Part shown: in pieces, positions 7,179-45,847 of the stretch
Numbering within the stretch: the stretch's first letter is position 1
Layout: each line of letters opens with the position of its first letter
The notes under the pieces: model-generated
Seen by the model: only the letters and a program-made list of their open reading frames with translations
Databases searched by the model: none
What the model was told of the DNA's origin: nothing
Position numbers and translations under genes: made by a program
Assembly: GCA_017547805.1 (NCBI GenBank)
Contig: JAFYOR010000107.1
Span: forward strand, 1 to 54,465
Reading direction: 5' to 3'
Length of the DNA stretch: 54,465 nucleotides
Source of the DNA: Clostridia bacterium
Lineage (GTDB): Bacteria; Bacillota; Clostridia; Christensenellales; Aristaeellaceae

Positions 7179-8024
7179 CTAAGCTTCTACCGGTTCATCA
7201 TCGAAATAGGAAAGACCTTTTGCTTCATCGCCCTCGTAGAGCACGCGCATGAGCATCAGTCCCTTTGCCGGGGCAGTCTGCCCCAGCGCAAGGCGGTCTC
7301 CGTTGGCGATCGCCTGTGCAATCGCGCCCGGTTCCCGTTTGCCCGTGCCCACTTCCATCAGCGTGCCGGCGATGATGCGCACCATGTTGTAAAGGAATCC
7401 GTCGCCCATGACCGTCAGCGTCACGACGTCGCCGCTGCGCTTTACTTCCGCTTTGTAAATCGTGCGCACAGTGCTTCTAACGACGCTGCCGCTGGCGGCG
7501 AACGCCGCGAAGTCGTGCGTGCCGATGAGCGCCTGCGCCTCTTCATGCATCAGCGCCTCATCGAGCTTGAGCGGAACATGCGCCATAAACTGCCGCCCCA
7601 CCGCGCAGTCGTGGCGGGAATTATAGAACGTATAGCGGTATACCTTTCCTGCCGCAGCGTAGCGCGCGTGGAATTTCTCCCGCGCCGGACCGCTTTCACG
7701 CACACGGATATCCGGCGGCAGCATCGTATTGAGCGCAAAGGCGATCTTTTCCGGCGGGATGCGCGTCGCGCTGTCAAAATGCACGCACAAGCCCAGCGCG
7801 TGAACGCCTGCGTCCGTGCGGCTGGATCCCGTGCAGGCGATAGCTTCGCCCGTCAGGCGGGAAAGCGCTTCCTCCAGCGTCTGCTGAACGGACGGACCGT
7901 TGATCTGCCGCTGCCAGCCGCAGTAATCCGTCCCGTCGTATTCCACGATCAGATAAAACCGCACAAGTCCCTGCGCCGGAACATCCGCCTCGCTCTCGCG
8001 GTGCTTTGAAACCAGCTTAACCAA
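7179..8024 (-). CDS. truA: tRNA pseudouridine(38-40) synthase TruA
   Basis: A 281-residue enzyme that isomerises uridines 38-40 in the tRNA anticodon arm. The catalytic Asp lies in SSRTDAGVHALG; YDGTDYCGWQRQ, NTMLPPDIRV, YRYTFYN and DGFLYNMVRIIAGTL are all typical. The start is a TTG preceded by GGAGGG with eight bases spacing and overlapping the last codons of ecfT by 8 bases; this gives a ~20-residue N-terminal extension relative to most TruA proteins. The order ecfA1-ecfA2-ecfT-truA is the common Firmicutes arrangement, here without the ribosomal protein genes that often flank it. Confidence 0.95.
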   Translation of the reverse strand: MVKLVSKHRESEADVPAQGLVRFYLIVEYDGTDYCGWQRQINGPSVQQTLEEALSRLTGEAIACTGSSRTDAGVHALGLCVHFDSATRIPPEKIAFALNTMLPPDIRVRESGPAREKFHARYAAAGKVYRYTFYNSRHDCAVGRQFMAHVPLKLDEALMHEEAQALIGTHDFAAFAASGSVVRSTVRTIYKAEVKRSGDVVTLTVMGDGFLYNMVRIIAGTLMEVGTGKREPGAIAQAIANGDRLALGQTAPAKGLMLMRVLYEGDEAKGLSYFDDEPVEA

Positions 8025-8823
8025 GGAGCATGCCCTCCGCGATGATGACCGCCATATACGCCGCCATCGCCAGCGCGCCGTAGAGATCCAGCTTCGTGTA
8101 CTTCAGCTCGCGCAGGCGGGTGCGGTGGTCGCCGCCGCGATAGCAGCGCGCCTCCATCGCCATTGCCAGGTCGTTTGCGCGCTTGAAGGCGCTGACAAAC
8201 AGCGGCACCAGCAGCGGAATCATCGCCTTGGCACGGGCCAGCAGGTTGCCGCTTTCAAAGTCCGCGCCGCGCGCCATCTGCGCCTTCTTGATCTTGTCCG
8301 TCTCCTCCAGCAGCGTGGGGATGAAGCGGAGCGCGATGGTCATCATCATCGCCAGCTCGTGGGAGGGGAAGTGGAACCTCTGCAGCGGATGCATCAGCCG
8401 CTCAAGGCCGTCGGTCAGGCGCACCGGGCTGGTCGTCAGCGTCAGCACGGAGGTGCCCATCACCAGAAATACAAGGCGCAGCGCGAAATATACCGCGTTT
8501 TCCACCGCCTCCAGCGTGAGGGTAAAAAAGCCGAGGGAAACAAGCGGCGTTTCGCCCTGCACAAAGAACAGATTGAGCAGGAAGGTAAAGATGATGATGA
8601 AGCGCAGGGGCTTGACGCCCTTGAGCAGATAGGAAAAACGGATGCCCGACAGGCGGACGACCAGATACAAAAACGCCAGCGCGATCACATAGCCCGGAAG
8701 GTTGGCGACCATGAAGACGCCGACGATGTAAATGATCGTCAGGATCAGCTTCATGCGCGGATCCATGCGGTGAATGACCGAATTGCCCGGGAAATACTGG
8801 CCCAGCGTGATATCGCTCAGCAT
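8017..8823 (-). CDS. ecfT: energy-coupling factor transporter transmembrane protein EcfT
   Basis: A 268-residue membrane protein that couples the two ATPases to interchangeable S components in group II ECF vitamin importers. It starts [20 protein letters not shown], has about five or six membrane segments, and carries two Ala-Arg-Gly-type coupling motifs seen here as MARGADF and MEARCYRGG. It overlaps ecfA2 by 7 bases and truA by 8 bases, so one mRNA is almost certain. No S-component gene is next to it. Confidence 0.95.
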
Positions 8824-9683
8824 GCGGCGCCTCCCTTCCCGAGGATCTTCTCGATCTCGTGCTTGATTTCCTCAATCAGATAGACACCCTGCGGAATGTC
8901 AAAGCCCTTTTCGCGCAGCTTGGCTGCCAGCTCGACAGCCTGCGGCACGTCAAGGCCCATCGCACGCAGCTCCTCCCCGCGGGAGAAAACGTCGCGCGGC
9001 ACGCCGTCCATGGCGACGGTTCCGTGGTTCATGACGATCACGCGCTCGGCAAGGGACGCCACGTCGTCCATTGAATGGCTGACCATGACGATCGTCGTGC
9101 CCGCCTCGCGGTGCAGCGCCTTGATCAGACCCATGATCTCCTCTCGGCCGCGCGGGTCAAGGCCGGCGCAGGGTTCGTCCAGCACCAGCACCTTGGGCTC
9201 CATCGCCAGCACGCCTGCAATCGCCACGCGGCGCATCTGGCCGCCGGAAAGCTCAAAGACGGAGCGTTCATGCAGCTTGTCATAATCAAGGGCGACACGG
9301 CGCATGGCGTCGCGCACGCGGCGGTCAATCTCCTCCTGATCCAGTCCCAGATTCTTCGGGCCAAAGGCGATGTCCTTTTCCACCGTCTCCTCAAAGAGCT
9401 GGTTTTCCGGATACTGGAAGACGAGGCCAACCTTCTGGCGGACGGCACGGCGGTCTGTTTTCTTGTCCGCCAGATCAAGTCCGTCGACCATGATCCTGCC
9501 GGATGTGGGCATGAGCAGACCGTTTAAGTGCTGCACCAGCGTCGATTTGCCGCTGCCGGTGTGGCCGATGAGCCCGATGAACTCGCCGTCCTCAATCGTC
9601 AGATTGATATCGGCAAGGGCCTTCGTCTCATACGGTCCGCCGGACATGTATGTATAATTCAGTTCCTCGATGACAATCGACAT
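8817..9683 (-). CDS. ecfA2: energy-coupling factor transporter ATPase EcfA2
   Basis: A 288-residue ABC ATPase. Walker [12 protein letters not shown]-loop [13 protein letters not shown], signature [16 protein letters not shown], Walker [14 protein letters not shown] and H-loop VSHSMDD are present, with the FGPKNLG and YENQLF features of the EcfA2 subfamily. It overlaps the end of ecfA1 by 25 bases. ATG start with GGAGG upstream. Confidence 0.94.
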
Positions 9684-10510
9684 ACTTCCTCCACCATTTC
9701 ATCCACAGTCAGCACATCCGCACGGACGTCGACGCCATCCGCGCGCAGCATATGCGAAAGATCCGTCATCTCCGGCACGTCAAGGCCGAGGGCGCGCACC
9801 TTTTCCACCTGCGTAAAGACCTCGCGCGGCGTACCGCTCATGGCAATCTTTCCCTCGTCCATCACGACAACGTAGTCCGCGGACGCCGCCTCGATCATAT
9901 AATGCGTGATGATCACGACGCTGATGCCCTCTTCGCGGTTGAGGCGATGAACGGTGTTCATCACTTCCTTGCGGCCGCTGGGATCCAGCATCGCAGTCGA
10001 TTCATCCAGAATGATCACATCCGGCTTCATCGCCAGCACGCCGGCGATGGCTACGCGCTGCTTCTGTCCGCCGGAGAGCATGTGCGGCGCCTTCTTGGCG
10101 TACTTGCTCATGCCAACCGCCTTGAGCGCATCATCGATGCGCACGCGGATAAGCGCCGGCTCCACGCCGTTGTTTTCAAGGCCGAAGGCCACGTCCTCCT
10201 CCACCACCGTCGCCACGATCTGGTTATCCGGGTTCTGGAAAACCATGCCCGCATGCTGGCGGATGTCAAAGACGAGGTCATCGTCCTTCGTGTCCAGTCC
10301 GCAGACCCAGACGGTGCCCGCGCCGGGGATGTACAGCGCGTTAAAAAGCTTGGCCAGCGTCGATTTGCCGCTGCCGTTGTGTCCAAGAATAGCCAGGAAT
10401 TCGCCGTTCTTCACGCGCATGGTCACGCCGTCCACGGCGTTCTTTGTCGCGTCGGGATAGGCGTAGGCCAGATTGCTGGCAATGATCCTGTTTTTGTTCA
10501 TGTCTGCCAA
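9659..10510 (-). CDS. ecfA1: energy-coupling factor transporter ATPase EcfA1
   Basis: About 283 residues. Walker [19 protein letters not shown]-loop [20 protein letters not shown], signature [16 protein letters not shown], Walker [14 protein letters not shown] and H-loop ITHYMIEA define EcfA1, the first ATPase of the ECF core. I favour a TTG start because GGAGGG ends seven bases upstream; the next ATG (MNKNRII, position 10501) would leave 16 bases of spacing. It is the first gene after the FMN riboswitch. The four genes ecfA1-ecfA2-ecfT-truA form one tightly overlapped unit. Confidence 0.94.
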
Positions 10511-10546: not shown

Positions 10547-10679
10547 CTGCATTACCGAAAACTGCTGTAAACCTCACCCTTCGGCGCACGCGGCCGACTG
10601 CGTTCAGATTTACATAACAAAGAAACGACACCCAAAGAAACCTTCTTCGGGCGCCGCAAAAAGAAACCTTGCTTTTTAC

Positions 10680-10796
10680 GTCTTCTTCCATCCAGACTGT
10701 ACTGTCGGTTCCGGAATCTCGCCGGATCGCAAAGGACTGTTCATCCTCTGTCGCGGACTTTACCGCCGGTCGGGAATTGCACCCTGCCCTGAAGAC
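10680..10796 (-). promoter_or_regulatory. FMN riboswitch (RFN element)
   Basis: Minus strand carries the conserved blocks in order: closing arm GTCTTC, AGGGCAGGGTGCAATTCCCG, ACCGGCGGTAAAGTCCGCGA, a variable arm, GAGATTCCGGAACCGACAGT, ACAGTCTGGATGG and the closing arm GAAGAC. The two closing arms are perfectly complementary. It binds flavin mononucleotide and usually shuts off riboflavin synthesis or uptake genes. Here the next gene is ecfA1, about 170 bases downstream, with no open reading frame between. Confidence 0.95.
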
Positions 10797-10802
10797 AAAA
10801 TG

Positions 10803-10831
10803 ATTATAACATAGTTTGCATTGATTGAAAA
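10803..10831 (-). promoter_or_regulatory. promoter of the riboswitch-ecfA1-ecfA2-ecfT-truA transcript
   Basis: Minus-strand TTTTCA, 17 bases, TATAAT with an extended -10 (TGTTATAAT). The predicted start lies right at the first base of the riboswitch. Confidence 0.7.
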
Positions 10832-10844
10832 GAACCAATTCCCG

Positions 10845-11040
10845 CCCTGCGCGAAGCGCATGATGGGTCAAGGGCGCAGCCCTTGCCGGGTCTGGGCCCG
10901 GGGCCCAGCGTCTCCCTTATGCTCATCCTTACTTATCTCTTTCTTCAAACCGATGGATACGTTGGGCTGCCGCCCAAACCTGCCAAGGGGCTGGCCCCTT
11001 GACCCCCACTCCGCTTCGCGCTGTTTCAAGAAAGGCTTCA
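10845..11040. repeat. two family B hairpin modules facing each other
   Basis: Two copies of the family B module. The one at about 10960-11028 follows the stop codon of the first CobW gene in sense orientation (CGCGAAGCG block, CAAGGGGCCAGCCCCTTG hairpin, GGGCGGCAGCCC hairpin). The one at about 10850-10910 is in the opposite orientation and lies just behind the riboswitch promoter. No gene is visible in this stretch. Confidence 0.65.
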
Positions 11041-11054
11041 GGATGGAACTCATC

Positions 11055-11999
11055 TTAATAGTTGAACGTGACGACCTCTTCCTCCGGCTCGCTCGCGGGC
11101 TCAATGCTCATGGCATAGAGCACCGGGCCAAGGCCCTTGTACTGCTTGCGCTCCTCCACGCGGATCTGCGCGGTGACGGTGACCCACGTCTTCGCCTGCG
11201 GCAGCGGCAGCCCGTTGCCATTGGCGATGAAGCCGACAAAGCGTACGTCATCCGCACAGCAGACCATCGCCATGCGGCCCGGAACAAACTCGTCGCGGCC
11301 GACGTTGCGTCCGCGATAAACGTAGCCCTTGAAGCGGATGGTCTTGCCGTCGTACATCTCCGGGTTCTCGCTGGCATGCAGGTAGAACACGCCGAAGTGA
11401 TAGTCTTCAAGCTCCACAATCGGGGCGTCCAGATCATAGGGAGGCGGCATGCCCTCGCCGTAATCCTCGCTGGTGCCGTCGTCGTTTTCAAAGTAGATCG
11501 ACGCGCGCGGGTTCATTGAGCGTACATTGCGGTCGCGGATCAGCTGACGGGTTTCCTCCGTCGCGCGGTTGAAGACGACCATGTCCGCATCGGTGATATG
11601 CTGAAGCATGCGCTGGCCGATGTTCGCGGCATATACTTCAAACGTCTCGGCGTTGACGGTGGTGATGATCTGGAAGATCTCCAGCACCTTGGGCGTGCAC
11701 TCAATCGCCGCATCCAGATCCCACATGCCGTTCATCTCGATGATGACGCGGTCGGGGTGATGCTTGCGCACGAACGCGCGCAGCGTGTCGCCGTTGTATT
11801 CGTCCTCGTCCTCGATGCACTCAACGACCGTATGGGTCTTCTTGAGGAACTCGGGATCGTACTCCTCCATGCCCTCCTCGCACTGAATGATGAGGGTGTT
11901 TTCATCGCGGGTAAAGCCCGGATCGCCCAGAACGCTGGCGATGAAGGAGGTCTTGCCGCTTTCAAGGAAGCCGGCAAACATATAAACAGGAATAGCCAT
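11055..11999 (-). CDS. CobW/P47K-type GTPase with a DUF1980-like C-terminal domain
   Basis: A 314-residue protein. The N-terminal half is a G3E GTPase: P-loop FAGFLESGKTSF, then a Walker B-type region ending in VIIEMNGMWD and a guanine-specificity-like FNRAT in place of NKxD. The metal-binding CxCC motif of metallochaperone COG0523 proteins is absent; only a single Cys appears (IIQCEEG). The C-terminal ~90 residues (GKTIRFKGYVYRGRNVGRD, FVPGRMAMVCCADDVRFVGF, TWVTVTAQI) resemble the C-terminal domain of the DUF1980/TIGR03943 family, usually part of a putative two-component permease. The start has AGGAG seven bases upstream. It is followed downstream on the same strand by family B repeats and preceded by the second CobW gene, suggesting a shared metal-related role, which is inference. 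Confidence 0.75.
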   Translation of the reverse strand: MAIPVYMFAGFLESGKTSFIASVLGDPGFTRDENTLIIQCEEGMEEYDPEFLKKTHTVVECIEDEDEYNGDTLRAFVRKHHPDRVIIEMNGMWDLDAAIECTPKVLEIFQIITTVNAETFEVYAANIGQRMLQHITDADMVVFNRATEETRQLIRDRNVRSMNPRASIYFENDDGTSEDYGEGMPPPYDLDAPIVELEDYHFGVFYLHASENPEMYDGKTIRFKGYVYRGRNVGRDEFVPGRMAMVCCADDVRFVGFIANGNGLPLPQAKTWVTVTAQIRVEERKQYKGLGPVLYAMSIEPASEPEEEVVTFNY

Positions 12000-12189: not shown

Positions 12190-13410
12190 TTAAACGCCAA
12201 ACAGCGCAGCGATCGCGTGCTCGTCGAGCTTGCTGCCGATCACGCACAGGCGGCCGGTAAAGTCCGCGCCGCCGCGGCGGATTTCCTGCTCGCCCGGGGT
12301 ATAGTCAAAGTGCAGCCAGCCGCCGTCCGTGCAGGGAATGATGCCCTTGGCGCGCAGCACGATGCCGTAACGCTCGTCCTCCAGCGCTTCAAGGATGCCG
12401 GCAAGCTCGTCCTCGCCGAACGCCTTGACCGTCTCCACGCCCCAGGAGGTGAATACCTCGTCGGCATGGTGGTGACCATGATGATGGTCGTGATCGTGGC
12501 AGCCGCAATCGCAGTGCTCGTCATGCTCATGGTGATGCTCGTGATCGTGGTGATGCTCGTGATCGTGGCAGCCGCAATCGCAGTGCTCGTCATGTTCATG
12601 ATGATGCTCGTGCTCATGATGGTGCTCATGCTCATGGTGGTGCTCGTGATCATGGCAGCCGCAATCACAGTGCTCATCATGCTCATGATGATGCTCGTGC
12701 TCATGGTGGTGCTCGTGATCGTGGCAGCCGCAATCGCAGTGCTCGTCATGCTCATGGTGATGATGCTGATGCTCATGCATGACGACTTCCAGCATCTCCT
12801 CCGCGAGGTTATGATCCTTCTCCATTGCAGAGAGGATCTGCGCGCCGGTGAGTTCGTCCCACGGCGTGGTGATGATGCGCGCCTTCTCGTTATGCTCGCG
12901 CAGCAGCGCAACCGCCTGCTCCAGCTTCTCCTGCTTCATCTTCTGCGTGCGGGAGAGGAGGATCGTGCCGGCGTATTCGATCTGGTTGAGGAAGAACTCG
13001 CCGAAGTTCTTGATGTACATACGGCACTTCATCGCGTCGGCGATGGTCACGAAGCTGCCCATCACAACGTCTTCAAGGTCCTTTTCAACGCCCTCGACCG
13101 CGCGGATAACGTCGGAAAGCTTGCCCACGCCGCTCGGCTCGATGAGGATGCGGTCCGGATGATACTGGTCGATGACCTTACGCAGCGCCTCGCCGAAATC
13201 GCCCACGAGGCTGCAGCAGATGCAGCCGGAGTTCATTTCGGTCACCTCGATGCCGGCTTCCTTCATAAAGCCGCCGTCGATGCCGATCTCGCCGAATTCA
13301 TTTTCAATGAGGACGACCTTCTCGCCGGAAAGCGCCTCCTTAAGCAGCTTCTTGATCAGGGTCGTCTTGCCCGCGCCAAGGAAGCCGGAGAAAATATCAA
13401 TCTTGGTCAT
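12190..13410 (-). CDS. CobW/COG0523 GTPase with a fourfold His/Cys metal-binding repeat
   Basis: A 406-residue putative metal chaperone or metal-insertion GTPase. P-loop FSGFLGAGKTTL, the canonical metal motif GCICCSLVGDF, ILIEPSGVGK and a C-terminal CobW_C domain ending ALFGV are present. Between them, roughly residues 215-325, sit four copies of DEHCDCGCHDHEHHH separated by HEHEHHH linkers, giving a very high density of His, Cys, Asp and Glu ligands. Zn, Ni or Co binding is expected from family knowledge; which metal is not readable. I chose the second ATG (MTKIDIF) because AGGAG ends nine bases before it and directly abuts the first ATG. It is near the other CobW-type GTPase, and a terminator-like hairpin sits in its short leader. 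Confidence 0.9.
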   Translation of the reverse strand: MTKIDIFSGFLGAGKTTLIKKLLKEALSGEKVVLIENEFGEIGIDGGFMKEAGIEVTEMNSGCICCSLVGDFGEALRKVIDQYHPDRILIEPSGVGKLSDVIRAVEGVEKDLEDVVMGSFVTIADAMKCRMYIKNFGEFFLNQIEYAGTILLSRTQKMKQEKLEQAVALLREHNEKARIITTPWDELTGAQILSAMEKDHNLAEEMLEVVMHEHQHHHHEHDEHCDCGCHDHEHHHEHEHHHEHDEHCDCGCHDHEHHHEHEHHHEHEHHHEHDEHCDCGCHDHEHHHDHEHHHEHDEHCDCGCHDHDHHHGHHHADEVFTSWGVETVKAFGEDELAGILEALEDERYGIVLRAKGIIPCTDGGWLHFDYTPGEQEIRRGGADFTGRLCVIGSKLDEHAIAALFGV

Positions 13411-13433
13411 GGAATTCATCTCCTATAACATAC

Positions 13434-45734: not shown

Positions 45735-45775
45735 TGTATTGTATATCCGTCTGAAATGGAGATGAGAGGAATACG

Positions 45776-45847
45776 CCGGGCTGCCGCCCGTACCTGTCCT
45801 AGGGACATCGTCCCTCGGACTCCCTTCTTCGCTTCGCGCAGTTTAAG
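45776..45847 (-). repeat. family B module after the ABC permease gene
   Basis: Sense orientation on the minus strand after the stop codon: GCGCGAAGCGAAGAAGGGAG, CGAGGGACGATGTCCCT(A)G hairpin, CGGGCGGCAGCCCG hairpin. Confidence 0.8.

Follow-up and report, generated by a model that had tools for sequence, protein, structure and literature searches.

The locus described here raises the question of what an FMN riboswitch controls when the genes behind it encode neither a riboflavin-specific S component nor a riboflavin synthesis enzyme. Such riboswitches are commonplace before ribU and rib genes. In the window, that is, the whole stretch of 54,465 nucleotides that we analysed, the riboswitch instead precedes the core genes of an ECF transporter and truA. 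With a probability of about 0.82, we conclude that a transcription-attenuating FMN riboswitch controls the shared core EcfA1-EcfA2-EcfT, together with truA, in a probable riboflavin auxotroph.

The aptamer was identified as a full-length match to RF00050 on the minus strand, at 10800-10676, with 116.7 bits against a gathering score of 66.2 (E 1.3e-26), and it is the only FMN riboswitch that the Rfam scan detected in the window. A first-pass annotation had placed an intact element with its own promoter at 10680..10796, directly before ecfA1-ecfA2-ecfT-truA; these coordinates are correct within a few bases, and a consensus scan located a promoter-like site at 10803..10831 on the same strand, composed of TTTTCA, a 17-nt spacer and a TG-extended TATAAT. 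The aptamer (10676..10800) is followed by an intrinsic terminator hairpin (10625..10657, minus strand) of 15 pairs, with a dG of -22.0 kcal/mol and a U-rich tail, TTCTTTGTT, which constitutes the expression platform. No further promoter was found by the consensus scan between the terminator and the ecfA1 start codon; a weak site starts at 10510, inside ecfA1. The gene upstream, a CobW/TIGR03943-like gene (11055..11999, minus strand), is not proposed as a member of the regulated unit; it identifies the corresponding site in relatives, whether or not these carry the riboswitch. Since the element lies between this gene and ecfA1 and the scan showed no other promoter in between, read-through from upstream would be gated as well.

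The riboswitch and the four genes behind it are all on one strand, and each gene overlaps the next: ecfA1, an ATPase of the ECF core (9659..10510; TIGR04520, 383.7 bits, cut-off 315, scanned from 10501), ecfA2, the second ATPase (8817..9683; TIGR04521, 402.4 bits, cut-off 330), ecfT, the transmembrane coupling protein (8017..8823; PF02361, 171 bits), and truA, a tRNA pseudouridine synthase (7179..8024; TIGR00071, 198 bits, cut-off 142.85), the ecfT-truA overlap being 8 nt. The start of ecfA1 is more likely the TTG at 10510 than the ATG at 10501, because the TTG and the purine-rich site preceding it recur by eye in the sequences of relatives. EcfT falls below the NCBIfam cut-off (CbiQ, 78.6 bits versus 111.8) and matches the solved EcfT chains 4huq, 4hzu and 5d3m in the PDB (E 5e-62). 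Thus, two EcfA ATPases and EcfT are encoded in one operon without an S gene, for which the overlapping ecfA1, ecfA2 and ecfT leave no space. Immediately behind ecfT, truA was found in all 30 of the regions that reach that far, whether the riboswitch is present or absent; since this order is independent of the riboswitch, a link between flavin and tRNA modification through truA may be a by-product of old gene order.

The first-pass annotation had stated that no ribU lies between the riboswitch and the core, and had named a ribU overlooked in the gap, or one at the same site in relatives, as the findings that would speak against its reading. Neither was found. The distance from the aptamer to the ecfA1 start codon is 165 nt, which is too short to hold an S component, and tblastn with two RibU proteins of the genus (E 1e-4) detected no RibU in the window, nor any near ecfA1 in 80 named loci (among the matches listed) and 32 further regions; with two queries at this threshold, the search could miss a very distant RibU.

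The genome that contains the window (G000) is a draft assembly of 2.67 Mb in 113 contigs, 83% complete, from a genus that includes Candidatus Ventricola gallistercoris. The window copy of EcfT is the only PF02361 match in the whole assembly, while six S components over the cut-off and one weak match below it were found elsewhere with PF12822, a family that does not include S components such as BioY. One EcfT and six S components suggest that the core is probably common to several S components, as the first-pass annotation had supposed from the general organization of such systems; because the assembly is 83% complete, a further EcfT or S component could be absent from it. One of the S components over the cut-off is FolT, which stands behind a THF riboswitch, and another is ThiW; both also exceed the cut-offs of their own models. 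A further one lies beside a putative coaX, read from its neighbourhood, and the remaining ones have no assignment. On contig C95 (L008), ThiW adjoins putative thiM and thiE, likewise read from the neighbourhood, and no TPP riboswitch matched at the gathering score within 1.5 kb of it.

G000 contains two FMN riboswitches. The second is located on contig C6 before an S component that matches solved RibU chains (PDB 3p5n, E 4.8e-24), although no NCBIfam model names it, and the two aptamers score almost equally (116.7 bits at ecfA1, 116.8 at ribU). The earlier proposal that the riboswitch acts on the core instead of on a riboflavin S component therefore does not hold: control of the core is in addition to control of RibU. 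The genome-wide search for S components and their riboswitches that had been recommended yielded six S components, with FolT under its own THF riboswitch, and also a RibU with an FMN riboswitch of its own.

The host is a probable riboflavin auxotroph. DHBP synthase (PF00926), the only riboflavin synthesis gene that we sought, was not found in G000 or in any of the 29 genus genomes, while the controls were detected in 14 of 14. Its absence suggests that riboflavin is probably imported obligately, and for this gene the first-pass statement that no riboflavin synthesis gene lies nearby is upheld. RibU-like genes were found in 27 of the 29 genomes, with two matches in six of those. Both observations would suit a core for which riboflavin is the dominant client, that is, one working almost only with RibU, so that other vitamins would be hardly affected by its regulation. 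However, G000 has six S components and a single EcfT, and FolT, with its THF riboswitch, and ThiW need a core too; we regard such dominance as unlikely.

The genus RibU proteins are of two types, 54-73% and 35-40% identical to the RibU of G000, each with a distinct FMN aptamer class (L118, L121, L091 and others). The one type-B protein that was checked matches solved RibU. By eye, no link was seen between the absence of the riboswitch at ecfA1 and the possession of one or two RibU genes.

Our survey of relatives revealed that the arrangement is conserved but rare. We searched upstream flanks of up to 1.5 kb, shorter in some loci, with an aptamer model (R1) built from 28 aptamers, including nine ecf aptamers of the genus, which match by construction; the sites in the genus g26 are outside the model, and RF00050 alone found the same genus sites. 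Among the 29 genus genomes, ecfA1 was detected in 27 (E 1e-80 or better), and the riboswitch lies beside it in eight of these 27 loci, in all three g26 loci and in none of 16 other loci of the family. A ninth genus case, G200, is assigned across a contig break, where the CobW-like gene and the aptamer end one contig and ecfA1 starts another. Relatives therefore keep the element before ecfA1, the point that the first-pass annotation had asked to check, in 9 of 27 genus loci and 3 of 3 g26 loci, but not in the other 18 genus loci, which indicates that the riboswitch is dispensable. Where it is missing, the CobW-like gene and ecfA1 are separated by a short gap or by as much as a few hundred nucleotides that contain no aptamer. 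The CobW-like gene is upstream of ecfA1 in 26 of the 27 genus loci irrespective of the riboswitch; in the 27th, G200, it lies on a different contig. For g26, the search gave no CobW-like match ahead of ecfA1, yet the riboswitch and ecfA1 are still together. Terminator-like hairpins were seen by eye before ecfA1 in the aptamer-less G116, G206, G217, G201-G204 and G214; these may be relics or reflect the recruitment of an older terminator.

Wider samples gave the same picture. In a family sample (among the matches listed, 115 of 200 genomes), we counted the riboswitch and ecfA1 as together when they share a strand and lie no more than 3 kb apart; this holds for 3 of 11 genus genomes, 3 of 3 g26 genomes and 0 of 101 others. 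A class sample comprised 118 genomes, of which 103 gave an ecfA1 match and 102 an FMN riboswitch; 96 have both, and G000 is the one in which they are together. Among the named ecfA1 loci, one of 80 in the matches listed has the riboswitch (L150, Ventricola), with the same layout as G165; three of the loci have less than 300 nt upstream. The FMN riboswitch on the ECF core is an old riboswitch class on an unusual target, in a small group of gut Clostridia.

Comparison of the nine genus leaders, aligned over 197 columns, revealed selection on the structure. Standard pairs occupy 97.0% of the 429 pair cells in the aptamer, spacer hairpin and terminator, compared with 43.0-56.1% for structures slid along the alignment. 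Changes on both sides of a pair were found in 12 of 48 pairs: five in the variable helix (columns 51-71), one in P5, four in the spacer hairpin and two in the terminator. In the shuffle control, none of 500 shuffles equalled the leaders in four measures out of five; for the remaining one, the number of pair types, 16 of 500 did so. With 82.4% paired, the spacer hairpin is the weakest part. The structure of the aptamer is kept in all nine species, in which the core positions are invariant and most core pairs never vary. All 9 aligned leaders preserve the 13 terminator pairs that were counted, and a terminator was found in 11 of 12 leaders, g26 included; G215 has a U-poor tail, yet its stem pairs in the alignment. 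Terminator dG lies between -22.0 and -28.4 kcal/mol in eight leaders of the genus and between -14.4 and -17.8 in g26. The promoter-like site, taken as the best site within 110 nt upstream in a scan without shuffled control, occurs in 9 of 9 genus leaders with a 17-nt spacing and a TG-extended -10, and with TTTTCA in eight; it ends 2-4 nt before the aptamer, or 41-42 nt before it in G165 and G200.

Phylogenetic analysis suggests that the association of flavin sensing with the core dates far back within the genus without having become fixed, since the trait changes five times on the five-gene tree while the ecf aptamers of the genus form one clade. The number of changes is 4-5 over bootstrap trees, and three are required when strongly supported branches alone are considered. 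The sister group of G000 consists of seven riboswitch-less species (96/96). The aptamer clade (98/97, with a bootstrap that had not fully settled) stands apart from both types of ribU aptamer. Holding all 12 ecf aptamers together was not rejected (p-AU 0.367), while the best tree groups g26 with the G182 aptamer (95/98). The tree of EcfA1 alone, in which G200 is labelled as lacking the switch, is poorly resolved.

Two routes to the present arrangement were considered and set aside. A fresh copy of a ribU leader at ecfA1 was rejected for the genus, as the ecf aptamers cluster apart from the ribU ones. The loss of a ribU gene from between the switch and the core was not supported either, as the upstream CobW-like gene is retained with and without the switch and the tblastn search with two RibU proteins found no RibU nearby.

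The riboswitch might also be a relic or neutral passenger, left by a ribU-ecf operon or a duplication. Its patchy occurrence, with five changes on the best tree, and the spacing of about 460-480 nt between aptamer and ecfA1 in G211 would be compatible with this. In contrast, the invariant aptamer core, the compensatory changes in the variable helix, spacer and terminator, and the retention of the promoter-like site and terminator speak against it; moreover, the ecf aptamers are not recent copies of ribU aptamers and no RibU was found at the ecfA1 site of relatives. We therefore consider this explanation very improbable. That a ribU leader was misjoined to ecfA1 in a metagenome bin, as the fragmentation and incompleteness of the G000 draft might allow, can practically be dismissed, since seven further genus assemblies and three g26 genomes, one of them in only 3 contigs, have the same junction within a single contig, and the ecf aptamer differs from the ribU aptamer of the same genome.

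For the switching itself, we propose an antiterminator in which the 5' strand of P1 and the bases after it (10786..10795, minus strand) would pair with 10652-10644 within the 5' arm of the terminator (10644..10652, minus strand), the predicted partner being GCCCGAAGA. In this model of 9 pairs, 95.1% of 81 cells are paired, against 40.7-55.6% when slid, and no covariation was observed. The number of shuffles per 100 that equalled the complementarity was 0-2 in G212, G211 and the three g26 leaders, where the pairing is thus strong; it is intermediate in G187 (6), G215 (11) and G000 (12) and weak in G209 (31) and G210 (60); in G165 and G200, the best pairing of this type falls elsewhere. The g26 terminator arm, CCTGAAG, is unlike that of the genus, yet also matches CUUCAGG. 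Support for the predicted pairing is mainly positional. In the same test, type A ribU leaders gave 8-93 of 100 and type B leaders 11-47, which adds no support to the antiterminator.

Within the preferred reading, control of the shared core by attenuation, we infer FMN binding, the sign of control, the antiterminator and the effect on other vitamins. Known FMN riboswitches are generally off at high FMN. This behaviour and the presence of a terminator suggest the same sign at ecfA1. When FMN is low, the P1 5' strand would pair with the 5' arm of the terminator, the terminator would fail and the core would be transcribed, while the second FMN riboswitch would raise RibU simultaneously. When FMN is high, closure of P1, competing with the antiterminator pairing, would free the terminator to form, and core transcription would drop. 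Flavin status would then govern how much core is available to the folate and other S components. The anatomy of the locus suggests that all ECF vitamins are throttled by FMN: as one riboswitch would set the amount of the only ECF core, riboflavin-replete cells would cut folate and other ECF uptake. We put forward only tentatively the broader proposal that FMN is the master signal for the import of several vitamins in this clade, in a hierarchy repeatedly gained or lost in related species.

The riboswitch at ecfA1 belongs to the same aptamer family, RF00050, as those of ribU (ypaA) and rib operons in Firmicutes, and in the genus ribU leaders, of which one per type was checked, a terminator hairpin also follows the aptamer. 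It differs from them in preceding the shared core and truA rather than an S component or riboflavin synthesis genes. Sun et al. 2013 (PMC3766115) assign FMN regulons to two groups, riboflavin biosynthesis with seven gene orthologs and riboflavin transporters with five. The operon resembles group II ECF transporters with a shared EcfAA'T core in its ecfA1-ecfA2-ecfT order, its one EcfT and its several unlinked S components; in contrast to them, the core is here behind the riboswitch of one vitamin. In acI Actinobacteria, cobalamin riboswitches precede an ECF module, which the authors of that study take as a putative cobalamin transporter (PMC5301498). There too an ECF module lies behind a cofactor riboswitch; here, however, no S gene is beside the core, which, judging from gene content, would serve several. 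In our literature search, no description of an FMN riboswitch before a shared ECF core was found; an earlier mention in Rodionov et al. 2009 (PMC2612444) is possible.

Competition of S components for one core has been proposed (PMC7755397). Distinct from this competition is the question of what determines how much core there is, and sister species that differ in whether the core has a flavin switch would permit a direct test of whether one vitamin rations the uptake of others. Our study also carries a warning for annotation, in that the gene behind an FMN riboswitch is not necessarily specific to riboflavin.

Other FMN-riboswitch loci yielded a separate observation. In 10 of 56 loci examined by script, mostly the best-scoring rather than a random set, a MalF-type ABC permease lies early downstream (L011, L018, L019, L023, L034, L035, L036, L038, L058 and L062), 54-91% identical to the permease of G186. 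We found nothing on a flavin ABC permease in our literature search, and regard the protein as a candidate flavin ABC importer. G116, which has such a permease, gave no RibU match, and the terminator arm of its permease-associated FMN riboswitch likewise matches CUUCAGG (2 of 100 shuffles). In the two regions checked with Pfam, L267 and L268, a solute-binding protein follows the permease, and L267 also has a phosphodiesterase/nucleotide pyrophosphatase.

Upstream of the riboswitch in the window, a CobW-type GTPase with long His-rich repeats (12190-13419) precedes the CobW/TIGR03943-like gene on the same strand. A dispersed intergenic repeat occurs in the window at 10957-11026 and 45771-45844, with 77% identity over 74 nt. 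By eye, similar stretches can be recognized before ecfA1 in several relatives, and in G211 the aptamer and ecfA1 are separated by additional sequence.
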